Of a DNA stretch of 64,000 nucleotides, positions 640-60,035 are shown one piece after another (positions within the stretch are counted from its first letter, which is position 1; each line of letters starts with the position of its first letter). The position numbers and the translations under genes were made by a program. The notes under the pieces were generated by a model that did no database searches, was not told where the DNA came from, and was given only the letters and a program-made list of their open reading frames with translations. This DNA is from Plotosus lineatus (lineage: Eukaryota > Chordata > Actinopteri > Siluriformes > Plotosidae), in the NCBI GenBank assembly GCA_024760905.1, contig CM045729.1:3527663-3591662 (forward strand), in the 5' to 3' direction.

Positions 640-1238
640 TGCTACTGAGTCCTACTCTTCTCCTTCCCCTCCTCTTCCTCCTTTGCCTGCGCTTCCACAT
701 ATCCCCTCCTTCTGATCCTCTTTCTACCTTTTCTCACCATCCTCCTCCTTTTTCTTCTTTCTCCTCCTCTGTTCCTTTCATTTTCGTTGCAATAATGCTG
801 TGTGCTTAGTACTGTGTTTTATTTGGGGATACATAGAACGGTTCAAGTCATTTGGAAAGTATTTTCATGCTGACTCCAGAAACACTTGATTTATGTATTT
901 ATTGGCTTGACATGATTACGGAAGTCATTTATTTATTTATTTATTAAGTTTATTTTTGTTTCTTTTTGGCAGGACTTCAGTGTGAATTCAAAATGTTCTT
1001 GGACATATAAATACTAATTCCAGCATTTCAGATCACATTAATAACAACAAAGAAGTAAAGCCGCTTTACTGACGAAGCGCCGGGCTGTGGTCCAGAGTGT
1101 GATGTGAATGATCCTCTAACACACAGCTGAAGAACCACACACAGGCTTTTCCAGTGGAAAGTCTAGCAGATCATGTTGGGCCGTTTCAGATGAAACTTTG
1201 TTCAGCTGCCAGGTTTCAGCAAAATTTCCATTTCGAAT
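640..1238. other. No gene seen
   Basis: Pyrimidine-rich to about 780, then AT-rich unique-looking sequence. I see no coding frame, tRNA or recognised repeat. Confidence 0.5.
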
Positions 1239-3751
1239 TCTTCTTCTTCTCCTTTCGGCTTTTCCCTTCAGGGGTCGCCACAGCGAATCATCTGCCTCCA
1301 TCTCACCCTATCCTTTGCATCTTCTTCTCTTACACCAACTACCTTCATGTCCTCCTTCACCTCGTCCATGAATCGTCTCTTTGGTCTTTCTCTAGGCCTT
1401 CTGTTTGGTAGTTCCAACCTCAGCATCCTATTACCAATATACTCACTATCCCTCCTCTGTACATGTCCAAACCATCTCAATCTAGCCTCTCTGACTTTGT
1501 CTCCAAAATGTCTTACATGTGTTGTCCCTCTGATGTGCTCATTCTTGACCCTATCCATCCTCATTACTCCCAAAGAGAGCCTCAACATTTTCATCTCCGC
1601 TACCTCCAGCTGTGCCTCCTGCCTTTTCCTCAGCGCCACTGTTTCTAAACCATACAACATCGCTGGCCTCATCACCGTCTTGTACACTTTTCCCTTCATT
1701 CTTGCCGATACCTTCCTATCACACATCACACCAAATACTTTTCTCCAACCATTCCAACCTGCCTGCACACGCTTCTTCACCTCTTTTCCACACTCTCCAT
1801 TGCTCTGGATTGTTGAGCCTAAGTACTTAAAATCCTCCACCTTTCTTATCTCTGCTCCCTGTAACCTCACCTCTTGGGTCCTTGTCATTCATACACATGT
1901 ATTCTGTCTTACTGAGGCTAACCTTCATTCCCCTCCTTTCCAGTTCATACCTCCACATATCTAGATTTTCCTGCACTTGTTCTCTGCTCTCACTACAGAT
2001 CACAATGTCATCTGCAAACATCATAGACCATGGAGAATCTTGTCTAACCTTGTCTGTCAGCCTGTCCATCACCATAGCAAACAAGAAGGGGCTCAGAGCT
2101 GACCCTGATGCAGTCCCACCTCCACCTTGAACTCTTCTGTCACACCGACAGCACACCTCACCACTGTCTTACATCTCTCATACATGTCCTGCACTACTCT
2201 AACATACTTCTCTGCCACTCCAGACTTCCTCATGCAATACCACAGTTCTTCTCTCGGCACCCTGTCAAATGCTTTCTCCAGATCCACAAAAGCACAATGC
2301 AGCTCCGTCTGACCTTCTCTATACTTCTCTATCAACATCCTCAAAGCAAACACTGCATCTGTGGTGCTCTTTCTTGGCATGAAACCAAACTGTTGTTCAC
2401 AAATGGTGACCTCTGCCCTTAGTCTAGCTTCCACTATTCTTTCCCATAACTTCATCCTATGGCTCATCAACTTTATCCCTCTGTAGTTGCCACAACTGTG
2501 CACATCTCTCTTGTTCTTAAAAATGGGCACCAGCACACTTCTCCTCCATTCCTCTGGCATCCTCTCACTCTCTAAGACCTTGTTGAATGTTCTTGTCAGG
2601 AAATCTACTGCTACCTCTCCTAGACACTTGCATACCGCCACCGTTTTGTCATCAGGACCATGTGCCTTTCCATTCTTTCATGCTCTTCAATGCCCTTCTC
2701 ACTTCATCCTTACTAATCTTTGCTACTTCTTGGTCCTCGATGACACAACTCCACCGGTATGTCATCAGGACCAAGTGCCTTTCCATTCTTCATCCTCTTC
2801 AATGCTCTCCTCACTTCACCCTTCTTAATCTTTGCTACTTCCTGGTCCTCGATGGTCACCTCTTCTACTCTTTTTTCTCTCTCATTTTCCTCATTCACCA
2901 GCTCTTCAAAGTACTCTTTCCATCTTCCCAGCACACTTCTGTCATCAGTCAATACATTTCCCCCTCTGTCCTTAATCACTCTAACTTGCTGTATGTCTTT
3001 CCCATCTCTATTTCTCTGCTTTGCCAACCTGTATAAATCATTTTCTCCCTCTTTACTTTCCAACCTATCATACAAGTCATCATACGCCCTCTGTTTGGCC
3101 TTTGACACCGCCACCTACGCCTTACGCTGTGTCTCCCTGTACTTCTGTTTACTCTCTTCGGTCCTCTCAATGTCCCACTTCTTCTTAGCTAACCTCTTCC
3201 TTTGTACACACTCCTGCACTTCCTCATTCCACCACCAAGTCTCCTTATCTACTCTCCTTCCAGATGACACACCAAGTATTCTCCTACCTGTCTCCCTGAT
3301 CACATTAGCTGTAGTTGTCCAGTCATCTGGAAGCACTTCCTGACCACCCAAAGCCTGTTTCAACTCCTCCTCGAAGACAACACGACACTTCCTTTTTCAG
3401 ATTCCACCACTTTGTCTTCTTCTCTGTCTTTGACTTCTTCACCTTCCTCACCATCAGCATCATCCTGCACACCACCATCCTATGCTGTTTGGCAACACTC
3501 TCACCCGCTACTACTTTGCAGTCACTGACTTCCTTCAAATTACATCGCCTACACAAGATGTAGTCTACTTGTGTGCTTCTACCTCCGCTTGATGCTCCTG
3601 TCTCTTCTGGAAGAAAGTATTTACCACAGCCATTTCCATGATTTTTGCAAAATCAATCAACATCTGTCCTTCTGTTTTCCTTTCCTCGATACCAAGCCTG
3701 CCCATCCTCGTCCCCTCTGTTTCCTGCACCAACATGTCCATTGAAGTCTGC
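1239..3751 (-). mobile_element. RTE-A LINE copy 1, 5' truncated
   Basis: This is a non-LTR retrotransposon of the RTE clade (BovB/Rex3/Expander-like by its motifs). The minus strand encodes part of the AP-type endonuclease, the linker GRWKEYFEELVNEE, reverse transcriptase motifs (GPDDIP, FVDLEKAFDRVPREE, FADDIVICSES) and a C-terminal tail with GRPRERPKRRFMDEV. The FADD aspartates near 2030 are intact. The frame is broken several times: pieces at 1268-1888, 1827-2156, 2093-2641, 2713-3114 and 3115-3556. A 113-bp tandem duplication at about 2648-2860 repeats codons around GPDDIP and shifts the frame. The copy stops abruptly at 3751 inside the endonuclease region. It is a dead copy. Confidence 0.88.
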
Positions 3752-3944
3752 AGAATCCTAAAGAATCCGTTCAAAGATTCAACTCAAAGAATTGACTTAA
3801 AGACCGAACAAATCAGTTCGATAATTCAATTCAGAATTAACTCAACAAATGATCTTAAAGAAAAAAAGCAGAAAGTCTCCGGACAGTCAGATTAAAATAC
3901 CAACTTAAGAAATGAGTTTAGAGAGTCAATTCAAAGAATTGGTT
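3752..3944. repeat. Degenerate AACTCAAAGAATC-like repeat, block 1
   Basis: Short imperfect units resembling TTCAAAGAATTGA and AACTCAAAGAAT recur. The same texture reappears at 4281-4576 and 5400-5560 on the far sides of a SINE and a LINE, suggesting one original array that was split by insertions. Confidence 0.5.
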
Positions 3945-10979: not shown

Positions 10980-11298
10980 GGCAGTGGTAGCCTGGTGTTA
11001 AAGGTGCTGGATCACTGATCCTAAGGTTGGGGGTTCGAGCCCCACTCTCCACGGGTGGTCACTGTCCTTCTAGTGCATGAACTGGGTTATCAAAGGCCGG
11101 CCATGTCTCTCATTGTCTATGGTGGGAGATTCATCTAAAAGAGCCATTGCGGACTTTCAACAAGAGGAGCTGCATAGCTGTCAGCGTGTTTCTGCCCTGC
11201 CAGGGTGTACGCTGACCTCGCCCAGAGTCGGCTGGGATGGGTGCCAGCCTCCCCGTGATCATAATTAGGAGTAAACAGTTATAGAAAAGAATGAATGG
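10978..11298 (+). mobile_element. tRNA-derived SINE, family 1, near full length
   Basis: The head has a box A-like GTGGTAGCCTGGTGTTAAAG and box B GGGGTTCGAGCCCC. The body ends GATCATAATTAGGAGTAAAC and is followed by ATGAATGGAT and an (AAT)n tract. This is one of the best family 1 copies in the window. Confidence 0.8.
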
Positions 11299-11357: not shown

Positions 11358-14300
11358 ACTTCTTCTTCTTCTTCTTTTCCTTTCGGCTTTTCCCTTCAGG
11401 GGTCGCCACAGCGAATCATCTGCCTCCATCTCACCCTATCCTTTGCATCTTCTTCTCTTACACCAACGACCTTCATGTCCTCCTTCACCACATCCATGAA
11501 TCGTCTCTTTGGTCTTCCTCTAGGCCTTCTGCCTGGTAGTTCCAACCTCAGCATCCTACTACCAATATACTCACTATCCCTCCTCTGTACATGTCCAAAC
11601 CATCTCAATCTAGCCTCTCTGACTTTGTCTCCAAAACGTCTTACATGTGCTGTCCCTCTGATGTGCTCATTCCTGATCCTATCCATCCTCGTTACTCCCA
11701 AAGAGAACCTCAACATTTTCATCTCTGCTACCTCCAGCTCTGCCTCCTGTCTTTTCCCCAGGGCCACTGTCTCTAAACCATACAACATCGTTGGCCTCAA
11801 CACCGTCTTGTACACTTTTCCTTTCATTCTTGCCGATACCCTCCTATCACACATCACACCGGACACTTTTCTCCAACCATTCCAACCTGCCTGTACACGC
11901 TTCTTCACCTCTTTTCCACACTCTCCATTGCTCTGGATTGTTGAGCCTAAGTACTTAAAATCCTCCACCTTTCTTATCTCTGCTCCCTGTAATCTCACCG
12001 TTCCTCTTTGGTCCTTGTCATTCATGCACATGTATTCTGTCTTACTGAGGCTAATCTTCATTCCCCTCCTTTCCAGGGCATACCTCCACCTCTCTAGATT
12101 TTCCTGCACTTGTTCTCTGCTCTCACTACAGATCACAATGTCATCTGCAAACATCATAGACCATGGGGAATCTTGTCTAACCTCGTCTGTCAGCCTGTCC
12201 ATCACCATAGCAAACAAGAAGGGGCTGAGAGCTGACCCTTGATGCAGTCCCACCTCCACCTTGAACTCTTGTGTCACACCGACAGCACACCTCACCTCTG
12301 TCTTACATCTCTCATACATGTCCTGCACCACTCTAACATACTCTCTGCCACTCCAGACTTCCTCATGCAATACCACAGTTCTTCTCTCGGCACCCTGTCA
12401 TATGCTTTCTCCAGATCCACAAAGGCACAATGCAGCTCCCTCTGACCTTCTCTGTACTTCTCCATTAACATCCTCAAGGCAAACACTGCATCTGTGGTGC
12501 TCTTTCTTGGCATGAAACCAAACTGTTGTTCACAAATGCTGACTTCTGCCCTTAGTCTAGCTTCCACTATTCTTTCCCATAACTTCATCGTATGGCTCAT
12601 CAACTTTATCCCTCTGTAGTTGCCACAACTCTGCATGTCTCCCTTGTTCTTAAAAATGGGCACCAGCACACTTCTCCTCCATTCCTCTGGCATCCTCTCT
12701 CTCTCTAAGACCTTGTTAAATCTTCTTGTCAGAAAATCTACTGCTACCTCCCCTAGACACTTCCATACCTCCACCGGTATGTCATCAGGACCAACTGCCT
12801 TTCCATTCTTCATCCTCTTCAATTCCCTCCTCACTTCACCCTTACTAATCTTTGCTACTTCCTGGTCCTCAACAGTCACCTCTTCTACTCTTTTTTCTCT
12901 CTCATTTTCCTCATTCATCAGCTCTTCAAAGTACTCTTTCCATCTTCCCAGCACACTTCTGTCATCAGTCAATTAATTTCCCTCTCTGTCCTTTATCAAT
13001 CTAACTTGCTGCACGTCCTTCCCATCTCTATTTCTCTGCTGTGCCAACCTGTATAAATCATTTTCTCCCTCCTTACTTTCCAACCGAGCATACAAGTCAT
13101 CAAACGCTCTCTGTTTGGCCTTTGACACTGCTACCTTTGCCTTACGCTGTGTCTCCCTGTACTCCTGTTTACTCTCTTCGGTTTTCTTAATATCCCACTT
13201 CTTCTTCGCTAATCTCTTCCTTTATACACACTCCTGCACTTTCTCATTCCACCACCAAGTCTCCTTATCTACTTTCCTTCCAGATGACACACCAAGTATT
13301 CTCCTACCTGTCTCCCTGATCACATTAGCTGTAGTTGTCCAGTCATCTGGAAGCACTTCCTGACCACCCAACGCCTGTTTCAACTCCTCCTTGAAGACAA
13401 CCCGACACCCTTCCTTTTTCAACTTCCACCACTTTGTCTTCTGCTCTGCCTTTGCCTTCTTCACCTTCCTCACCATCAGCATCATCCTGCACACCACCAT
13501 CCTATGCTGTTTGGCAACACACTCACCCGCTACTACTTTGCAGTCACTGACTTCCTTTAAATTACATCGCCTGCACAAGATGTAGTCTACCTGTGTGCTC
13601 CTACCTCCACTTTTATAAGTCACCCTATGCTCCTCTCTCTTCTGGAAGAAAGTATTCACCACAGCCATTTACATCCTTTTTGCAAAATCTACCAACATCT
13701 GTCCTTCTGCGTTCCTGTCCTGGATTCCAAACCTACCCATCACTTCCTCGTCCCCTCTGTTTCCTGCACCAACATGTCCATTGAAGTCTGCCCCAATGAC
13801 CACTCTTTCACCTCTGGGGGTACTCTGCATCACTTCATCTAACTCCCTCCAGAATCTCTCCTTCTCTTCTCGCTCACATCCTGTCTGTGGGGCATAAGCA
13901 CTAACAACATTGACCATCACACCTTTAATTTCTAACTTGAGACTCATCACTCTGTCTGACACTCTTTTCACTTCTAGAACATTCCTGGCAAACTCCTCCT
14001 TCAAGATGACTCCGACTCCATTTCTCTTCCCATCCACACCGTGATAAAACAGCTTAAACCCTGCTCCTAAGCTTCTAGCCTTGCTACCTTTCCACCTGGT
14101 CTCCTGAACACACAGTATGTCCACCTTCCTCCTCTGCATCATGTCAGCCAGCTCTCTACCTTTTCCTGCCATAGTTCCAACATTCAAAGTCCCTACTTTC
14201 AGTCCTAGACTCATGCCTTTCCTCTTCTCTCTCTGGCAACGGACACGCCTCCCGCCTCTCCTTCTTCGACGTCTTCGACCAACAGTAGTTCAATTTCCAT

Positions 14301-14513
14301 CAGCACCCTGTTGGTTGACAGCACTGATGGCGGTCGTTGTTAACCCGGGCCTCGACTGATCCGGTATGTGATTCTTTCTTGTGATTCGCATGGTTTATTT
14401 GGCATTTGTTTTATGCCGGATGCCCTTCCTGATGCAACCCTCTGCATTTATCCGGGCTTGGGACCGGCGTGAGGGAGAGACACTGGTTTGTGCCCCCCCC
14501 CTCACGGCTGCAT
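11358..14513 (-). mobile_element. RTE-A LINE copy 2, full length
   Basis: A full-length RTE-A of about 3.16 kb. The 5' end on the minus strand is ATGCAGCCGTGAG at 14513, shared with the copies ending at 18382, 27772 and 52997. The 3' UTR is only about 35 bp after the stop, rich in GAAAAG, with a (GAA)n tail. Flanking sequence is AAT/CTA microsatellite on both sides. A short 3' UTR, a simple-repeat tail and a single EN-RT frame are typical of the RTE clade. Confidence 0.9.
11396..14391 (-). pseudogene. RTE-A endonuclease-reverse transcriptase, nearly intact frame
   Basis: The product would nick target DNA and copy the element RNA at the nick. I start it at the Met at 14391 (MRITRKNHIPD), by comparison with the open start at 27649 in copy 4; this gives about 1,000 residues. 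In order: a basic Arg-rich N terminus, AP endonuclease motifs (VGTLNVGTM, VQETRWKG, VVSAYAPQTG, IGADFNGHVG), the linker, RT motifs (GPDDIP, FKNKGDMQSCGNYRGIKL, FVDLEKAYDRVP, GLHQGSALSPFLFAMV, FADDIVICSES) and a C-terminal region ending RWRQMIRCGDP. Damage: Trp to stop near 14290, Glu to stop at 13669-13671, Gln to stop at 13222-13224, a stop near 12974, and a 1-bp deletion near 12343. Motifs are otherwise intact, so the copy is fairly young. Confidence 0.87.
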
Positions 14514-14517
14514 TATA

Positions 14518-14524
14518 ATACTAC

Positions 14525-15286: not shown

Positions 15287-18200
15287 TACTTCTTCTTTTT
15301 CTTTTCCTTTCGGCTGCTCCCTTCAGGGGTCGCCACAGCAAATCATCTGCCTCAATCTCACCCTGTCCTCTGCAACTTCTTTTTTGACTCCAACGACCTT
15401 CATGTCTTCCTTCACCACATCCATAAATCTCTTCTTTGGTCATCCTCTAGGCCTTCTGCCTGGTAGTTCCAACCTCGGCATCCTACTGCCAATATACGCA
15501 CTATCCCTTTTTCTGTACATGTCCAAACCATCTCAATCTAGCCTCTCTGACTTTGTCTCCAAAACATCTAACATGTGCTGTCCCTCTGATATACTCATTT
15601 TTGATCCTATCCATCCTCGTTACTCCCAGAGAGAACCTCAACATTTTCATCTCCGCTACCTCCAGCTCTGCCTCCTGCCTTTTCCTCAGCGCCACTGTTT
15701 CTAAGCCATACAACATCGCTGGCCTAACCACCATCTTGTACATTTTTCCTTTCATTCTTGCTGACACTCTCCTATCGCACATCACACCGGACACTTTTCT
15801 CCAACCATTCCAACCTGCCTGCACACGCTTCTTCACCTCTTTTCCACACTCTCCATTGCTCTGGATTGTTGAGCCCAAGTACTTAAAATCCTCCACCTTC
15901 GTTATCTCTGCTCCCTGTAACATCACCGTTCCTCCTGGGTCCTTCTCATTCACACACATGTATTCTGATTTTCTGAGGCTAACCTTCATTCCCCTCCTTT
16001 CCAGGGCATACCTCCACCTCTCTAGATTTTCCTGCACTTGTTCTCTGCTCTCACTACAGATCACAATGTCATCTGCAAACATCAAAGTCCATGGAGATTC
16101 TTGTCTCACCTTGTCTGTCAGCCTGTCCATCACCATAGCAAACAAGAAGGGGCTCAGAGCTGACCCTTGATGCAGTCCCACCTCCACCTTGAATTCGTCG
16201 GTCAGGCTGACAGCACACCTCACCTCTGTCTTACATCTCTCATACATGTCCTGCACCACTCTAACATACTTCTCTGCCACTCCAGACTTCCTCATGCAAT
16301 ACCACAGTTCTTCTCTCGACACCCTGTCATATGCTTTCGCCGGATCCACAAAGGCACAATGCAGTTCCCTCTGACCTTCTCTGTACTTCTCTATTAACAT
16401 CCAACATCCTCAAAACAAACATTTCATCTGTGGTGCTCTTTCTTGGCATGAAACCAAACTGTTGTTCACAAATGCTGACCTCTCCCCTGAGTCTAGCTTC
16501 CACTATTCTTTCCCATAACTTCATCGTATGGCTCATCAACTTTATCCCTCTGTAGTTGCCGCAACTCTGCACGTCTTCCTTGTTCTTAAAAATGGGCACC
16601 AGCAAACTTCTCCTCCACTCCTCTGGCATCCTCTCACTCTCGAGGACCTTGTTGAATGTTCTTGTCAGAAAATCTACTGCTACCTCTCCTAGACACTTCC
16701 ATATCTCCACAGGTATATCATCAGGACCAACTGTCTTTCCATTCTTCATCCTCTTCAATGCCCTCCTCACTTCACCCTAACTGATCTTTGCTACATCCTG
16801 ATCCTCAATGGTCACCTCTTCTACTCTTTTTTCTCTCTCATTTTCCTCATTCATCAGCTCTTCAAAGTACTCTTTCCATCTTCCCAGCACACTTCTGTCA
16901 TCAGTCACTACATTTCCCTCTCTGTTCTTTATCAATGTAACTTGCTGCACATCCTTCCCATCTCTCTCTCTTTGCTGGACCAACCTGTATAGATAATTTT
17001 CTCCCTCCTTACTGTCCAACCTATCATACAAGTCATCATACGCCCTCTGTTTGGCCTTAGCCACTGCTACTTTCGCCTTACGCTGTGTCTCCCTGTACTC
17101 CTGTTTACTCTCTTCGGTCCTCTCAATGTCCCACTTCTTCTTAGCTAACCTCTTCCTTTGTACACACTCCTGCACTTCCTCATTCCACCACCATGTCTCC
17201 TTATCTACTTTCCTTCCAGAGGACACACCAAGTACTCTCCTACCTGTGTCCCTGATCACATTTGCTGTAGTTTTCCAGTCATTTGGAAGCACTTCCTGGC
17301 TACCCAAAGCCTGTTTCAACTACTCCTTGAAGACAACCTGACACTCTTCCTTTTTCAACTTCCACCACTTTGTCTTCTGTTCTGCCTTTGCCTTCTTCAT
17401 CCTCCTCACCATCAGCGTCATCCTGCACACCACCATTCTATGCGGTTTAGCAACACTCTCACCCACTACTACTTTGCAGTCACTGACTTCCTTTAAATTA
17501 CATCGCCTACACAAGATGTAGTCTACCTGTGTGCTCCTACCTCCGCTTTTATAAGTCATACTATGCTCCTGTTTCTTCTGGAAGAAAGTATTCACCGCAG
17601 CCATTTCCATCCTTTTTGCAAAATCGATCAACATCTGTCCTTCTGCGTTCCTGTCCTGGATACCAAACCTGCCCATCACTTCCTTGTCCCTCTATTGCCT
17701 GCACCAACATGTCCATTGAAGTCTGCACCAATGACCACTCTTTCACATCCTGTCTGTGGGGCATAAGCACTAACAACATTGAGCATCACACCTTCAATTT
17801 CTAACTTGAGACTCATCACTCTGTCTTACACTCTTTTCGCTTCTAGAACATTCCTGACAAACCCCTCCTTCAAGATGACTCCGACTCCATTTCTCTTCCC
17901 ATCCACACCATGATAAAACGGCTTAAACCCTGCTCCTAAGCTTTTATCTTTGCTACCTTTCCACCTGGTCTCCTGAACACACAGTATGTCCACCTTCCTC
18001 CTCTGCATCATGTCAGCCAGCTCTCTACCTTTACTTTCATAGTTCCAACATTCAAAGTCCCTATTTTCAGTCCTAGACTCATGCCTTTCCTCTTCTCTCT
18101 CTGCCTACGGACACGCCTCCTGCCTCTCCTTCTTCGACGTCTTCGACCAACAGTAGTTCAGTTTCCATCAGCACCCTGTTGATTGACAGCACTGATGGTT

Positions 18201-18382
18201 AACCCGGGCCTCGACCGATTCGGTATGGGGGTAATACTTCTGATTTGCATCATAAAAGTTTGGCATTGGTTTTATGTCGGATGCCCTTCCTCACACAACC
18301 CTCTGCATTTCTCCAGGCTTGGGACCGGCATAAGGGGGAGAGACACTGTTTAGTGCCCCTCCCCCCCGCCTCTTGGCTGCAT
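15287..18382 (-). mobile_element. RTE-A LINE copy 3, full length with target-site duplication
   Basis: The flanks carry identical 14-bp direct repeats, TGACAAGAAGCACA at 15273-15286 and 18383-18396, which define both element ends at base resolution. The minus strand encodes EN and RT in broken frames: 15501-16400 (RT core with FADDIVICSES), 16327-16770, 16777-17319 and 17320-17679 (endonuclease-RT linker), and 17826-18011. Frames differ between the 3' part and the middle, so frameshifts are present. A short deletion removes endonuclease codons around 17735. Confidence 0.92.
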
Positions 18383-23669: not shown

Positions 23670-23742
23670 AGACTCTTTATTTTGCATATATATATATATA
23701 AACAAAAGGACAGGACAAAGGCTTTCTATTGAAACTCCATTT

Positions 23743-23797
23743 ATCACTACAGATCTGTTTCGAGGGGTGGTGAAACCATCCCCTCTCTTCAGGTGAT
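23743..23797 (-). ncRNA. Hammerhead ribozyme, type I, Penelope-like copy A
   Basis: Read on the minus strand: stem I 5' ATCAC (23797-23793), CTGAAGA (23792-23786), stem II hairpin GAGGGGATGG / TTTCA / CCACCCCTC with one bulged A, GAAA (23761-23758), stem III CAG-AT-CTG (23757-23750), UA cleavage dinucleotide, and stem I 3' GTGAT (23747-23743). All catalytic core positions of the hammerhead consensus (CUGANGA, GAAA, UH) are present. Stem III has only 3 bp, and its 8-nt sequence is self-complementary, so dimeric folding is likely, as described for short-stem-III hammerheads of retroelements. Function is inferred from sequence only. Confidence 0.85.
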
Positions 23798-23817
23798 TAC
23801 AGAAGAACATGATTACA

Positions 23818-24020
23818 TGAACATTGACCACCAGATCTCATGGAGAATTTTATCATCACACCCGACATACAACAGCTCAAACAAAAGATGCAATTTATGC
23901 CTCAGGGAGAAGTTCCTCATTATATACAGACCCGAACTGTCTTCATTAAATAAAAGAAATGAACTCGTAACTTCATGCCGACACAGGAAAAAATCATTAT
24001 TATGCAACACACCCCCTTAA
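23818..24020 (+). pseudogene. Penelope-type GIY-YIG endonuclease, C-terminal fragment
   Basis: The frame (open from 23793) reads NIDHQISWRILSSHPTY, then NKRCNLCLREKFLIIY and LNKRNELVTSCRHRKKSLL. The pattern W-x-I-L, C-x-L-C-L-x-E-K, LNKRxEL, CRHRxK is characteristic of the end of Penelope-like polyproteins, in the endonuclease domain that nicks target DNA. The GIY and YIG motifs and the reverse transcriptase are absent. The first ~9 codons of the open frame lie in the inverted terminal repeat and are not native. The stop at 24018-24020 is probably the true end. Confidence 0.75.
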
Positions 24021-24104
24021 GTACACTAAGTATTTGATTGTATCAATCTGTATCTAAACATTATGTATACTTGTGTATGTGTGTATGTGCTTACACACGT
24101 GAAC

Positions 24105-24216
<112 letters not shown>

Positions 24217-24388
24217 GTGTGTACATATGAGTCCATGGGCATGAGTAAAACTAATGTCTGCACATGTATGCATGTATCGATATTAAAAAAACCCGCCCCC
24301 GAATACATAATGAGCACCACCCCATCTAGAGGACACCATGTTCATCGACATAGTACCTCCCCCAGCACTTTGTAATCATTCTTCTGTA

Positions 24389-24442
24389 ATCACCTGAAGA
24401 GAGGGATGGTTTCACCACCCCTCGAAACAGATCTGTAGTGAT
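24389..24442 (+). ncRNA. Hammerhead ribozyme, type I, Penelope-like copy B
   Basis: Stem I 5' ATCAC (24389-24393); CTGAAGA (24394-24400); stem II GAGGGATGG (24401-24409), loop TTTCA, CCACCCCTC (24415-24423) with 8 pairs and one A-C mismatch; GAAA (24424-24427); stem III CAG-AT-CTG (24428-24435); UA (24436-24437, predicted cleavage after 24437); stem I 3' GTGAT (24438-24442). It is in the same orientation as the endonuclease frame and downstream of it, as expected for a ribozyme in the Penelope terminal repeat. Confidence 0.88.
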
Positions 24443-24542
24443 AAATGGAGTTTCAATAGAAAGCCTTTGTCCTGTCCTTTTGTTATTTGCTCTACCAAAA
24501 AGTATTGAGCACTCTCCTACGGAAGGATCTACTCAGAAAATC

Positions 24543-24545
<3 letters not shown>

Positions 24546-24625
<80 letters not shown>
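24546..24625. repeat. (TA)n microsatellite between Penelope-like and RTE-A ends
   Basis: About 40 TA units joining the end of the Penelope-like block to the 3' tail of RTE-A copy 4. Confidence 0.97.
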
Positions 24626-29740
<5,115 letters not shown>

Positions 29741-29880: not shown

Positions 29881-29918
29881 TATACATTATATATATATTT
29901 ATATATATTTATATATAG

Positions 29919-30055
29919 AGGATTTTCTGAGAAGATCCTTCCGTAGGAGAGTGCTCAATACTTTTTGGTAGAGCAAATAACAAAAGGACAGGACAAAGAC
30001 TTTCTATTGAAACTCCATTTATCACTACAGATCTGTTTCCAGGGGTGGTGAAACC
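29919..30055 (-). mobile_element. Penelope-like terminal repeat, copy C, truncated
   Basis: Matches the terminal block of the element at 23684-24545 (TTCTGAGAAGATCCTTCCGT, GTGCTCAATACTTTTTGG, ACAGATCTGTTTCC). On the minus strand the hammerhead motif keeps stem I 3', UA, stem III and GAAA, but the sequence is cut in stem II at about 30055, where it meets gypsy coding sequence. CUGAAGA and the stem I 5' strand are missing, so this copy cannot self-cleave. Confidence 0.8.
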
Positions 30056-31325
30056 ATTCTCGGTTTCCTTCCTGAGAAGTGGTTCGACACTGCCATCTAT
30101 CGCAGTGAACCAAGCATCCGTCCGGTAATTCCCAGCTACAATTTCTGCATTGAATGTTCCTAGGGTTTTCAGTGGTGTTGAACTGGCATATTGGAAACAA
30201 CTGCCTGCCTCCTTTCTTCGACACACATTTGATACTCTTCGACTTCAGGTAGTTCCACAATTCACGGTTGATAATGTTGCTATTGCTGCCAGAGTCAACA
30301 ATAATGTCCATACCAACTCCGCCCACTGACACGGGAATGACTTCACTGCTATCACTCCTCACTCTGTTCATTCTGTGCACATTACTTCTCATGCAGAAAG
30401 CATACCTTTCACTCTCCTGATCTTCACTATCACGATCCACCTTCTCAGCCTCCAAATGCTTTACATCGCTACGGCCATGTGGTTTCCTACCATTTTTCCT
30501 GCTACTAAAGCCACTTTTATCCCGTTTTTCTTTTGTGCGGGGTTTTCTGGATGAGTCAGTGTAACACTTCGAAGCAAAGTAATCAAATCCCTTACACCTT
30601 TGACTGTTGACCCCTGCTGGACAGGTACGATCTCTGCCATAGTGACCGAATTTTCCACAACAGAAACAGGCATTGTCGTTTTGTCCTGTCTTCTGACTGT
30701 ATTTGACTGAATTATGTTCCTTAATTCTTTGAACACGTTCGAATTGTCCCCCTTTTATGTTCATAGCTTTCATCTGTTCTTCAACAGCTTCAAACGTTGC
30801 AGACATTTTCAACATTGAGCTTAGTGAAAGTTCATCTCCCTTTTCCAGGAACTTGCGTCTCAAATGGTCAGACTTGCAGGTTTCCATCACCTGATCATGA
30901 ATTTGGTCATCAACATCATTGTAATCACAGCCCTCAGCTGCTGCAGGTAATCTAGTGACATACTGTGACACAGTTTCATCAGTTTGCTTAATTTTTCTGA
31001 ATATGTGGCGCTGATAAGTTATGTTTGGTTTCACAGTCAAGTGCGTCTTCAGAGCAGTAATTGCCTTAAAATATTCTTGAGACTCACCCCGGTCTGGCAG
31101 AGTTTTGAAAATACTTCTAAGTCCAGCTCCCGCTGTATACAGCAGTGATGCACGCCTCTGTGCCTGATTATCTGCCCTTCCTTTCACAACAAATACTGCT
31201 TTACTATCACCGTATGCCTCAAATTCCTCGATCCATGCTTTCCAATGAATGCTAACAGCACTAGCATCGCCGGAGAGGTCAAATGCAGACATGCCACGAA
31301 CATTGCTTATTTCCTCCATTTTCAC
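30056..31325 (-). pseudogene. Ty3/gypsy-type Gag and protease fragment
   Basis: The frame starts MKMEEISNVRGMSAF at 31325. A capsid-like helical region covers about residues 20-200 (WKAWIEEFEAYG, FRKIKQTDETVSQYVTRL), then a zinc-knuckle region (CFCCGKFGHYGRDRTC, then a second knuckle that has lost Cys residues), a basic stretch, and the aspartic protease active site DIIVDSGSNSNII at about residue 345. The frame breaks near 30193 and protease sequence resumes in another frame (TPLKTLGTFNAEI). Everything downstream (RT, RNase H, integrase) is lost at the junction with the Penelope-like piece at about 30055. It would have made the particle core and maturation enzyme of an LTR retrotransposon. 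Confidence 0.82.
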
Positions 31326-31387
31326 TAAAAACTGTCACAGTTCTAATGTTTACTGCTTCTTCGTGAGCTACTTATCCTTGTCACCAA

Positions 31388-35275: not shown

Positions 35276-35283
35276 TTCTAAAG

Positions 35284-37070
35284 TATCATGGGAGAACCAA
35301 CACTAGATTATCATGGGAGAATAAACATGAGCGAATCATGGGAGAATCAACACTCAAGAATCACAGGAAAATCAACACTTGAGAATCATGGGATAATCAA
35401 CAGTAGAGAATCATTGGAGAATAAACACTAGAGAATCATGGGATAATCAACACTAGAGAATCACGGGAGAGTCAATACTTGAGAATCACGGGAAAATCAA
35501 CACTAGATAATCATTTGAGAATCAACACTAGAGAATCATGTGAGAATCAACACTAGAGGATCATGGGAGAATCAACACTAGAGAATTATGGGAGAATCAA
35601 CATTAGAGAATGATGGGAGAAACAACACTATAAAATCATTTAAGAATTAACACTATAAAATCATGGGAGAATCAACACTTGAGAATCATGGGAGAATCAA
35701 CACTAGAGAATCGTGTGAGAATCAACACTAGAGAATCATGGGATAATCAACAGTGGAGAATCATGGGAGAATCAACACTAGAGAATCGTGTGAGAATCAA
35801 CACTAGAGAATCATGGGATAATCAACAGTGGAGAATCATGGGAGAATCAACATTAGAGAATGATGGGAGAAACAACACTATAAAATCATTTAAGAATTAA
35901 CACTATAAAATCATGGGAGAATCAACACTTGAGAATCATGGGATAATCAACACTAGAGAATCATTGGATAATCAACACTAGAGAATCATGGGATAATCAA
36001 CACTAGAGAATCATTGGATAATCACCACTAGAGAATCATGGGAGAATCAACACTAGAGAATCATTGGCGAAACAACACTAGAGAATCATGGGAGAGTCAA
36101 TTCTTGAAAATCATGGGAGAATCAACACTAGAGAATCGTGTGAGAATCAACACTAGAGAATCATGGGATAATCAACAGTGGAGAATCATTGGAGAATCAA
36201 CACTACAGAATCATGGGACAGTCAATACCAGAGAATCATGGGAGAATCAACACTAGAGAATCATGTGAGAATCAACACTCGAGAATCATAGGATAATCAA
36301 CAGTGGAGAATCATTGGAGAATCAACACTAGAGAATCGTCGTATAATCAACACTAGAGAATCATGGGACAGTCAATACTAGAGAATCATGGAATAATCAA
36401 CAGTGGAGAATCATTGGCGAATCAACATGAGAGAATCAAGTGAGAATCAACACTTGAGAATCATGGAAGAATCAACACTTGAGAATCATGAGAGAATTAA
36501 CACTTGAGAATCATGGAAGAATCAACACTTGAGAATCATGAGAGAATTAACACTTGAGAATCATGGGATAATCAACACTAGAGAATCATAGGAGAATCAA
36601 CACTTGAGAATTATGGGGTAATCAACACTAGAGAATCATGGGAGAGTCAACACTAGAGAATCATGGGGGAGTCAATACTTGAGAATCATGGGAGAATAAA
36701 CATTAGAGAATCATGGGATAATCACCACTTGGAAAATCATGGGAGAATCAACACTACAGAATCATGTGAGAATCAACACTTGAGAATCATGGGAGAATCA
36801 ACACTTGAGAATTATGGGATAATCAACACTAGAGAATCATAGGAGAATCAACACTTGAGAATCATAGGATAATCACAACTAATGAATCATGGGAGAGTCC
36901 ACATACTAGAGAATCATGGGAGAATTAACGTTAGAGAATCATGGGAGAATCAACACTTGATAATCATGGGATAATCACCACTAGAGAATCATGGGAGAAT
37001 CAACACTTGAGAATCATAGGAAAATCAACACTTGAGAATCTTGTTAAAGTCAACACTTGAGAATCATGGG
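35284..37070. repeat. 25-bp minisatellite array (~71 units)
   Basis: The consensus unit is about GAGAATCATGGGAGA plus ATCAACACTA. Units differ at a few positions (GGGATAATC, GTGTGAG, CAGTGG), and variants are phased into higher-order repeats: a 75-bp trimer repeated around 35701-35850, and a 250-bp (10-unit) block repeated with CATTAGAGAATGATGG at 35601 and 35851. Open frames across it are by-products. Confidence 0.95.
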
Positions 37071-37560
37071 AGTGCAGAAAGGGGATGTTCTGGAGTAGAA
37101 TGGTGTTCTTCTAGAGCAAATAGTGTGCCCTCTATAGCGGACTCTTTTTAGAACAGTAACAGCTGCCCCTGAAACCAGGGCCCCTGAAGCATAGGGCTCT
37201 ACTCTGGAGCAATTTGGCCACCTCCAGAAGGGGCAGAAGGGGCTTGTTCTGTAGCAGAAAGCGCATCCTCTGGAGCAGGATTGGTACCTCCTGGAACAGA
37301 ACGGACTCCTTCTGTAGCACAAAGGGTGTCCTCTGGAGCAGGATAAGCACCTCCTGGAGCTGAAAGGGTGCCCAACGGAGCAGAAATGGCTGTCCCTGAA
37401 GAAGGAGATTTACCTCCTGCCCCACCTGGAGCAGAACATTCAGATTTTGGAATGGAATGGTCAGTTTCTGCAATATAAAGGGTATCCCCTGAAGCAAAAA
37501 CGGTGTCTCCTGGGTGGAATAGGCTCCTTCTGGAAATGTTTGAAGTTGCTCGGGACTAAA
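37071..37560 (-). repeat. Degenerate 21-bp tandem repeat with an open frame
   Basis: On the plus strand variants of CCTCTGGAGCAGAATGGGTG recur about every 21 bp. On the minus strand the frame 37132-37569 (145 aa) shows a 7-residue period: FLLRWAP, FQLQEVL, ILLQRTP, FVLQKES, VLFQEVP, ILLQRMR, FLLQNKP. Because 21 is a multiple of 3 the frame stays open by chance or by selection. I recognise no protein family and see no splice or promoter context. Confidence 0.75.
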
Positions 37561-38532: not shown

Positions 38533-38880
38533 CATGCCAGGGTAGTGGTGGCCTGGTGGTAAAGGTGCCGGATCACTGATCCTAAGGTTGGGGGTTCAAG
38601 TCCCACTCTCAACAGGACGTCACTGTCCCCCCAGTGCACTAACTGGGTTATCAAAGGCTGACCATTTCTCTGTCTATGGTGAGAGGTTCATGCAAAAGAG
38701 GTTTATGTAAAAGAACCATTGCTGAATCTTATCAAGAGTAGCTGCATAGCTGTCAGTTGTGTTTCTGTCCTGCGATGGCCTGGCGAGCTGTCGAGTACTC
38801 TGCCCTTGCCCGGAGATGGCTGGGATGGGCCCCAGCCTCCCTGCGACCCTAAATAGGATTAAGTGATTACAGAAAATGAT
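38533..38880 (+). mobile_element. tRNA-derived SINE, family 1, near full length
   Basis: Head GGTAGTGGTGGCCTGGTGGT, box B GGGGTTCAAGTCCC, and an end at AATAGGATTAAGTGATTACA followed by a GATGATG run. Confidence 0.8.
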
Positions 38881-51159: not shown

Positions 51160-51162
<3 letters not shown>

Positions 51163-52997
51163 AGCACACTTCTCCCACATTCTTCTGGCATCCTCTCACT
51201 CTCTAGTACCTTGTGGAATGTTCTTGTCAGGAAATCTACTGCTTCCTCTCCGATACACTTCCATATCTCCACCGGTATGTCATCAGGACCAACTGCCTTT
51301 CCATTCTTCATCCTCTTCAATGTCCTCCTCACTTCACCCTTACTAATCTTTGCTACTTCCTGGTCCTCAACAGTCACCTCTTCTACTCTTTTTTCTCTCT
51401 CATTTTCCTCATTCATCAGCTCTTCAAAGTACTCTTTCCATCTTCCCAGCACACTTCTGTCATCGGTCAACACGTTTCCCTCTCCGTCCTTAATCACTCT
51501 AACTTGCTGCACGTCCTTCCCATCTCTATTTCTCTGCTGTGCCAACCTGTATAAATCCTTTTCTCCCTCTTTACTGTCCAACCTATCATACAAGTCATCA
51601 TATGCCCTCTGTTTGGCCTTTGACACCGCTACATTCGCCTTATGCTGTGTCTCCCTGTACTTCTGTTTACTCTCTTCAGTCCTCTCAATGTCCCACTTGT
51701 TCTTAGCTAACCTTTTCCTTTGTACACACTCCTGCACTTCCTCATTCCACCACCAAGTCTCCTTATCTCCTTTCCTTCCAGAGGACATGCCAAGTACTCT
51801 CCTACCTGTCTCCCTGATCACATTTGCTCTGGTTGTCCAGTCATCCGGAAGAACTTCCTGACCTCTCAAAGCCTGTTTCAACTCCTCCTTGAAGACAACA
51901 CGACACTCTACCTTTTTCAGCTTCCACCACTTTGTCTTCTGCTCGGCCTTTGCCTTCTTCACCTTCCTTACCACTAGCGTCATCTTGCACACCACCATCC
52001 TTATGCTGTTTGGCAACACTGTCACCCACTACTACTTTGCAGTCACTGACTTCCTTCAAATTACATCGTCTGCACAAGATGTAGTCTACCTGTGTGCTCC
52101 TACCTCCGCTTTCATAAGTCACCCTATGCTCCTCTCTCTTCTGGAAGAAAGTATTCACCACAGCCATTTCCATCCTTTTTGCAAAATCGATCAACATCTG
52201 TCCTTCTGTGTTCCTGTCCTGGATACCAAACCTGCCCATCTCACTTCCTCGTCCCCTGTGTTTCCTGCACCAACATGTCCATTGAAGTCTGCACCAATGA
52301 CCACTCTTTCACCTCTGGCGGTACTCTGCATCACTTCATCTCACTCCAGAATCTCTCCTTCTCTTCTCGCTCACATCCTGCCTGTGGGGCATAAGCACTA
52401 ACAACATTGACCATCACACGTTCAAGTTCTAACTTGAGACTCATCACTCTGTCTGACACTCTTTTCACTTCTAGAACATTCCTGACAAACTCCTCCTTCA
52501 AGATGACTCCGACTCCATTTCTCTTCCCATCCACACCATGATAAAACAGTTTAAACCCTGATCCTAAGCTTCTAGCCTTGCTACCTTTCCACCTGGTCTC
52601 CTGAACACACAGTATGTCCACCTTCCTCCTCTGCATCATGTCAGCCAGCTCTCTACCTTTTCCTGCCATAGTTCCAACATTCAAAGTCCCTACTCTCAGT
52701 CCGAGACTCATGCCTTTCCTCTTCTCTCTCTGCTTACGGACATGCCTCCCGTCTCTCCTTTTTCGACCAACAGTAGTCCTATTTCCACCAGCACCCTGTT
52801 GGTTGACAGCACTGATGGCGGTCGTTGTTAACCCGGCCTTGAGCGATCCGGTATGAAATTTGTTCTGATCATTTGCATGTTTATTTTGGCACAGCCAATC
52901 CTGTCGCAGCCCTCTGCATTTATCCGGGCTTGGGACCGGTGTGAGGAGGAACACTGGGTTGTGCCCCCCCCCCCCACCCCCCCCCCCACGGCTGCAT
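51160..52997 (-). mobile_element. RTE-A LINE copy 6, 3' half missing
   Basis: The 5' end is intact (GGCTGCAT at 52997, plus-strand reading, followed by (ATTC)n), with the endonuclease in 52331-53005 (VGTLNVGTM, VQETRWKG), the middle in 51841-52239, and the linker to early RT in 51072-52025 (GPDDIP, then ESERMPEECGRSVLA). It is then cut by (TA)n. The RT catalytic core, C-terminus and 3' UTR are absent. This is opposite to the usual 5' truncation. Confidence 0.88.
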
Positions 52998-56209: not shown

Positions 56210-56454
56210 CGAGAGCACATCTTCTATAATCACCTGAAGAGAGAGGATGGTCTCACCACCCCTCGAAACAGATCTGTAGTGATAAATGGAGTTTCAATAG
56301 AAAGTCTTTGTCCTGTCCTTTTATTTTTGTTTATTTGCTCTACCAAAAAGTATTGAGCACTCTCCTACGGAAGGATCTACTCAGAAAATCCCCTATATAT
56401 ATATATAGGGGATTTTCTGAGTAGATCCTTCCGTAGGAGAGTGCTCAATACTTT
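56210..56454 (+). mobile_element. Penelope-like terminal repeat, copy D, with palindromic end
   Basis: Same terminal block as at 24372-24545: hammerhead region, TTATTTGCTCTACCAAAAAG, and CTACGGAAGGATCTACTCAG. At 56347-56454 the end forms a perfect 108-bp palindrome centred on the TA run, i.e. the last ~50 bp of the terminal repeat are followed at once by their own inverse. Confidence 0.85.
56229..56283 (+). ncRNA. Hammerhead ribozyme, type I, Penelope-like copy D
   Basis: Stem I 5' ATCAC (56229-56233); CTGAAGA (56234-56240); stem II GAGAGGATGG, loop TCTCA, CCACCCCTC (56241-56264) with one bulged A and one A-C mismatch; GAAA (56265-56268); stem III CAG-AT-CTG (56269-56276); UA (56277-56278); stem I 3' GTGAT (56279-56283). 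The core is intact; stem II is weaker than in copies A and B. Confidence 0.82.
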
Positions 56455-59631: not shown

Positions 59632-59815
59632 CATTCATTTTCTGAACCACTTAATCCTAATTAGAGTTACGGGGAGGCCAGCACCCATCCTGGCCGACAC
59701 CGCGCGAGACTGCCCTGAACAGCTCGTCGGACCATCGCAGGGCAGAAACACGCTGACGGTTTTACAGCTCTTGTCGAAAGTCAGCAATGATTCTTTTCAC
59801 ATGAAACGGGGACAG
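59632..59815 (-). mobile_element. SINE family 1 tail half
   Basis: Starts TCATTCATTTTCTGAACCAC and TTAATCCTAATTAGAGTTAC; includes GTCAGCAATGATTCTTTTCA. It meets a plus-strand SINE head at 59816. Confidence 0.7.
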
Positions 59816-60035
59816 TGGTGGTCTAGTGGTATAGGACGCTGGATCACTGATCCAAAGGTTGGGGGTTCGAGTCCCACTCTCCACAAGGTTGCCACTGTCC
59901 CCCCCCAGTGCAGCTAACTGGGTTATCAAAGGCGGGCCATGTCTCTCACTGTCTATGGTGAGAGGTTGATGTAAAAGAACCATTGCTGACTTTCGTAAAG
60001 AGGAGCTGCAAAGCTGTCAGCGTGTTTCTGTCCCT
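59816..60035 (+). mobile_element. tRNA-derived SINE, family 1, head and body
   Basis: ACAGTGGTGGTCTAGTGGTA (box A region), box B GGGGTTCGAGTCCC, body to CAGCGTGTTTCTGTCCC, interrupted at 60036 by the RTE-A-ended element. Confidence 0.78.

Follow-up and report, generated by a model that had tools for sequence, protein, structure and literature searches.

A hammerhead ribozyme in a Penelope-like element of Plotosus lineatus and insertion junctions clustered at its predicted cleavage site

A hammerhead ribozyme (HHR) core lies at 24389..24442 on the plus strand of a 64-kb stretch of Plotosus lineatus DNA (the window), in a copy of a Penelope-like element (PLE) termed copy B. Based on the sequence and a motif descriptor, its elements follow in the order stem I, CTGAAGA, stem II, GAAA, stem III and TA, so that the type I core CUGANGA ... 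GAAA ... UH is present and ordered. The stem I strand ATCAC (24389-24393) pairs with GTGAT (24438-24442), CTGAAGA occupies 24394-24400, stem II spans 24401-24423 (5 bp, one A.C mismatch, 3 bp and the loop TTTCA), GAAA lies at 24424-24427, the hairpin ends with CTGT at 24436 and A17 is at 24437. Every letter and coordinate claimed for these elements in an earlier note on this DNA proved exact on re-reading of the sequence. With positions in the unit (u) defined as window position minus 24370, cleavage is predicted at 24437..24438 (plus strand), between A17 at u67 (24437) and u68 (24438), a site at which junctions concentrate in other copies.

Upstream on the same strand, as the earlier note had it, is a Penelope-type endonuclease tail, comprising the C terminus and stop codon of a PLE-type endonuclease ORF (23820..24020, plus strand), 5'-truncated at 23818-23820. 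From the ORF end to the ribozyme runs a pLTR-like 3' part (24021..24370, plus strand), which is interrupted by a TA repeat, occurs also in the 29 of 150 arms that run upstream, and has pieces matched in other copies. Copy B continues into a tail of the long form (24443..24549, plus strand) followed by a TA repeat; the short form found elsewhere ends near 24480-24487. Copy A (23701..23817, minus strand) is an inverted, short-tailed arm with an intact ribozyme and forms the other end of the insertion holding copy B (L009). Copy A ends at 23817, the protein match to relatives starts at 23820 and copy B starts at 24371; we therefore read copy A, the ORF end, the 3' part and copy B as one insertion, flanked on both sides by TA repeats and with its tails pointing outward. 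Two further copies are present in the window. Copy C (29888..30057, minus strand) is 5'-truncated within stem II and has a long tail and no ribozyme, and copy D (56220..56407, plus strand) is an older, long-tailed copy whose core is intact with one extra stem II mismatch. At 56347-56454 the end of the copy D tail and a tail fragment in inverted orientation face each other over a TA run, giving a perfect 108-bp palindrome that is tail-to-tail, unlike the head-to-head pairs described below.

Other repeats share the window. A 459-aa open frame adjoining copy C (29955-31334, minus strand) encodes a CCHC-like knuckle and matches an aspartyl protease family weakly, below the cut-off (PF13650, E 0.011); it is probably the remains of an LTR-type gag-protease and had 0 matches in the viral contigs collection. 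A multi-copy LINE-like repeat at 24626-27779 (minus strand) carries a reverse transcriptase match (RVT_1, E 8e-20) and has relatives at 1238-3752, 11371-14520, 15289-18365 and 51161-52972, the copies being 88-97% identical. At 35278-37072 lies a satellite-like array with self-match offsets at multiples of about 25 bases and 81-85% identity. Two tRNA-like matches, at 38542-38614 (31.6 bits) and 59815-59885 (33.8 bits), are just above the Rfam cut-off of 29; the second sits within a dispersed repeat (59813-60035, about 85% like 10982-11198), which makes tRNA-derived SINEs likely.

The type I identity that the earlier note had read from the layout was upheld by a strict descriptor (CTGANGA, four closing stem II pairs, GAA, an A...T hairpin with three pairs, H and five stem I pairs), which matched twice in the 64-kb window, at copy B and at copy A on the minus strand, versus 0 matches in 150 dinucleotide shuffles. 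Copy D was missed owing to one A.C mismatch. A loose HHR pattern gave 12 matches versus 3.1 expected, a number reached in 1 of 100 shuffles. The Rfam covariance check that the earlier note had named came out negative: Hammerhead_1 (RF00163), run on 91 bases, aligned at model positions 1-45 of 45 and scored 10.8 bits (E 7.3) versus a curated cut-off of 34, so copy B is not filed under that entry. At gathering level the whole window returned no hammerhead and two matches, both tRNAs, and at E<=5 over 1 kb none of 26 matches was a hammerhead. We judge the Rfam type I threshold to be unsuited to the minimal HHR form. A chance, functionless likeness would agree with this low score and with the modest fold z-scores (-2.29 for 24389-24442; -1.62, -2.34 and -0.84 for longer stretches of copies B, A and D, respectively), but it is hardly credible given the empty shuffles, a core intact in 70 of the 84 ribozyme-length copies at the examined loci, a junction peak falling on the predicted cleavage site, and HHRs published at the same place in PLEs (PMC6155905, in the part of that paper available). 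Since HHRs in PLEs are already a known class, the motif is an ordinary new member of it.

In the predicted fold, the helix continues outward beyond 24389..24442, CTTC (24381-24384) pairing with GGAG (24447-24450) across an internal loop TGTA/AAAT, so the ribozyme as a whole would span about 24381..24450 (plus strand). Stem II differs between copies, copy A having 9 bp with a bulged A and copy B lacking one G that is found in copy A. The 3-bp stem III of the earlier note is workable, though not as CAG/CTG, a pairing that leaves a 2-nt loop; A-U, C-G and A-U pairs close the loop GAUC instead. The strand involved, ACAGATCTGT (24427..24436, plus strand), is a perfect palindrome kept in 82 of the 84 copies, and may form either this intramolecular stem III or a 10-bp stem III between two molecules. 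The best monomer fold (-20.9 kcal/mol) closes the core by pairing C3-U4-G5 with the CAG of stem III, an inactive form, while the active form of the monomer, in which stem III has 3 bp, is computed at -17.2 kcal/mol; three helices open at stem I pair on paper and in the dimer fold. For copies A, B and D, the optimum of two-strand folding was a double hammerhead with the 10-bp inter-strand stem III and both cores unpaired, and the predicted shape makes an HHR dimer through stem III plausible. The dimer energy was set aside as evidence: its gain of -10.6 kcal/mol was equalled by 40 of 300 shuffles, and the fold shape alone is informative. Minimal HHR variants of PLEs were reportedly described by Cervera and De la Pena in 2014, and Lunse and others are said to have found in 2017 that such variants cleave as dimers. 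Copy B resembles these variants, as far as the available parts of PMC6155905 and PMC7229834 present them, in its type I layout, very short stem III and position in a PLE terminal repeat, and is unlike them in its outer stem I with internal loop and its long stem II.

In L056, a fuller copy, the ORF codes for 541 aa, the family protein being about 705 aa. In the search for this protein family, 4991 of 7987 scored candidates reached 1e-20; Pfam and NCBIfam had no match to L056, and GIY-YIG (PF01541) gave a just-below-cut-off match in one of nine relatives scanned. The structure model of P0085 reached a pLDDT of 80.9 (56-70 for four other models). Telomerases filled the first nine rows of its structural comparison and ranks 1, 2 and 4 in Foldseek, with bacterial DRT9 at rank 3, indicating that the PLE protein is predicted to have a telomerase-like reverse transcriptase, telomerases leading by a small margin. 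The rows shown were without a GIY-YIG entry, which is uninformative because the reverse transcriptase domain fills the list, and the endonuclease domain modelled alone gave a poor model (pLDDT 46.6). Sequence comparison with solved structures gave no match for P0085 or for the window ORF. Two traits of PLEs are found here: a hammerhead in the terminal repeat, and an optional tail extension at one end together with an AT-rich target.

Exact matches to the 49-nt ribozyme number 11 in the 1.33-Gb genome (control 0), 10 of which were fetched or lie within the window; an exact ribozyme 35-mer had 0 places in each of the viral contigs and genome contigs collections. The 179-bp unit gave 1926 first-look candidates, the best 40 of which were scored, with a ranking biased towards copies that are uncut and long-tailed and towards starts near u1. 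As a corrective sample, ranking by the tail alone was used to score 40 of 910 candidates (32 newly fetched, 8 already in the sample). Arms and pairs were counted on 81 stretches, namely 79 fetched loci (11 duplicates of 90 dropped) and two window stretches. With the four-G form as the reference for aligning the 84 ribozyme-length copies, every indel (29 deletions and one insertion) fell in the stem II strands or base, at consensus positions 24-47 (of 106 in all); the 38 substitutions, by contrast, were spread across the stretch. This clustering fits an enzyme copying through folded stem II, with the caveats that G and C runs are a confounder and that common ancestry may inflate the count; the 2-base losses preceding AAA, however, lie outside such runs. 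In several of the 84 copies (L002-L058 and the window), G12 of the catalytic GAAA is missing from one arm and present in the other.

Head-to-head pairs of the A/B type follow a near-strict rule. Counting pairs up to 4500 nt apart at the fetched loci, 62 of 64 combined one long and one short tail, none was long/long or short/short, and two had an unclassed end; since pairs were found via the long tail, except at exact-ribozyme loci, short/short is under-sampled and long/long is not. Given at least one long tail and an independent, equal choice at each end, 62 unlike pairs of 62 have a chance of 1e-11. Among the first 38 pairs, the long arm was on the left in 20, on the right in 16 and unclassed in two, and TA-rich DNA followed the tail in 72 of 74 arms (long, 35 of 37; short, 37 of 37). 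The literature searched, mostly outside subscription papers, contained no count of long/short tail pairs. The available part of PMC3846280 describes bdelloid Penelope families with inverted pLTRs head-to-head, a pLTR that includes the ORF start and an optional 31-bp tail carried by one of the two, features shared here, and proposes self-priming, in which one cDNA folds back and copies itself; those families differ in having few (single) copies, as opposed to tens of pairs under the near-strict rule. The head-to-head, palindromic structure would suit such an origin, as would the like 5' ends of most pairs (of 38 pairs, 22 were solo/solo and 11 extended/extended, one, window A/B, was mixed, and four had at least one truncated arm). 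Self-priming, however, predicts that the self-copy ends where the first arm ends, with like tails, and extended pairs have arms that differ in length. The unlike tails therefore argue against self-priming, which we regard as distinctly improbable, and for two separate, coupled starts. Arm-to-arm differences were tried as a further test and rejected (mean 0.028 within pairs, 0.023 between), because gap placement in the G run is strand-dependent and the copies are nearly identical. The filler between arms at L034, L033, L012, L013 and L021 resembles repeated pieces of arm ends, for instance several TTTGTAATCA in a row, as if templated while joining.

The 5' ends of the 150 arms with a recognised tail fall into three groups: 101 start at u-6 to u13, 29 extend into the 3' part or the ORF, and 20 start inside the unit. 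Within the first group, 57 start at u7 to u10 (24377-24380) and 11 between or after the clusters, while 33 start at u-6 to u-1, a cluster around u-3 whose share is inflated by the u1 start of the first query. The other cluster, at u8, adjoins the outer stem I, just before it. On the simplest reading, starts at u-6 to u13 probably mark the 5' end of the RNA, the cDNA having run to the end.

Of the 20 internal starts, eight (8 of the 150 arms) lie at u64-72. Under a uniform model for the 17 internal starts up to u112, the chance of at least eight in a 9-nt window is 5e-5, or 9e-4 by locus, for a window centred on the predicted site but picked after the first cases had been seen. A genome-wide search for the head-to-head pattern with both arms ending near the cleavage site found 115 places, versus 0 for a reversed-pattern control, as counted at this junction position. 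Among the 50 listed of these 115 places (two pairs of neighbours among the 50, separated by 229 and 118 bases, may stem from local duplication), arms started at u65 (4), u66 (9), u67 (24), u68 (29), u69 (18), u70 (6) and u71 (10); thus 71 of 100 start at u67-69 (24437-24439), positions that were set by maximal exact extension and are blurred by one-base fillers and overlaps. We take this peak as a putative genomic footprint of ribozyme-cut RNA used as template.

Alternatively, the HHR may not cut in the animal, and the u68 peak may reflect reverse transcriptase stopping at the folded ribozyme, with end joining then aided by the ATCAC/GTGAT palindrome. The stem II indel cluster looks as if the enzyme meets a fold; further internal starts occur in the tail-only sample (40 places) at u15, u17 (both arms of L082, diverged-looking), u22, u44, u53, u54 and u66; and the sole biochemical study found no need for cleavage (PMC11167929). 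An enzyme arriving from the 3' side, however, would hit stem I at u72 or the outer stem I at u80, not u68, and the arm starts peak at u67-69. At one listed junction two u68 ends are joined bluntly and exactly, and a stop on one strand leaves unexplained L075 and L078 of the tail-only sample, in which both arms start at u67-71. We hold this account to be unlikely, though to be taken seriously; that nearly all arms keep an uncut ribozyme does count against a reading based on cutting.

Spread of a non-autonomous, retrozyme-like element through ribozyme-made circular RNA was considered as well. The units are small, mostly non-coding and carry a type I HHR, as do animal retrozymes, which co-occur with PLEs according to the available part of PMC7229834. 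The retrozymes presented there are direct tandem repeats with circular RNAs, unlike the inverted pairs and the autonomous PLE found here; short stretches were fetched, and these loci held inverted arrangements only, with no direct tandem copies of the pLTR or retrozyme type. As most ends also lie away from the cleavage site and fuller copies contain the PLE ORF, this origin is very improbable.

On the evidence of the observed sequence, the family of the protein, the unlike tails of the sampled copies and the junction positions in the 50 listed places, we infer a course of insertion that includes an RNA 5' end, two priming events and cleavage in the animal. Two cDNAs would be primed at a cut TA-rich target, one per target end, each starting inside the element RNA, a near site giving the short tail and a far site the long one. 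Joining of the two cDNAs head-to-head would yield an insertion of the A/B type. In most events the cDNA would be copied past an uncut ribozyme as far as the 5' end of the RNA, level with the outer stem I or slightly upstream of it. Some other insertions would come from RNA that the ribozyme had severed after 24437, both cDNAs running off at 24438 and being joined there. We consider it probable that copy B is an HHR at the 5' end of a PLE transcript, occurring again downstream of the ORF in fuller copies, that copies A and B bound a single insertion, and that some events were joined at a ribozyme-cut end.

A more speculative and quite unlikely extension is that the palindromic stem III pairs two element RNAs as a double hammerhead, and that this pair templates an obligately unequal, two-ended insertion, one subunit used from the near site and one from the far site, with ribozyme cutting in the same complex. 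If true, it would account for the one long and one short tail of each pair, for the like kinds of 5' end and for the joint ending of both arms at the cleavage site.

The closest comparison is PAc, the Poseidon PLE of Anolis carolinensis (PMC11167929), whose enzyme cuts and extends both strands of AT-rich targets. Its reverse transcription starts at two sites in the RNA, 111-118 bp into the ORF, and its HHR straddles the ORF start; ribozyme mutants were without effect on insertion in vitro, cleavage was not observed when protein was absent, and none of the RNA reads stopped at the site. PAc shares with the present element an HHR at the 5' end of the unit, an ATG in the stem II region, two reverse transcription start sites roughly 100 nt downstream, AT-rich targets and extension of both target strands. 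The ORF of PAc, however, continues from the ATG near stem II, whereas the ATG of copy B (24406) leads to a stop after 10 codons; for PAc no difference in start site between strands is reported, whereas tails are unlike within a pair here; and PAc gave no sign of cut RNA, whereas junctions peak at the predicted cleavage site here.

In that published system, insertion had no need of cleavage and cut RNA was not observed (PMC11167929), and the role of HHRs in PLEs can now be asked from sequence. A genome with many young insertions ending on the predicted cleavage nucleotide makes this role testable, and any model of insertion is strictly constrained by the long/short tail rule. If the junction peak is specific to the cleavage position, ribozyme cutting would be recorded in the genome as insertion boundaries.
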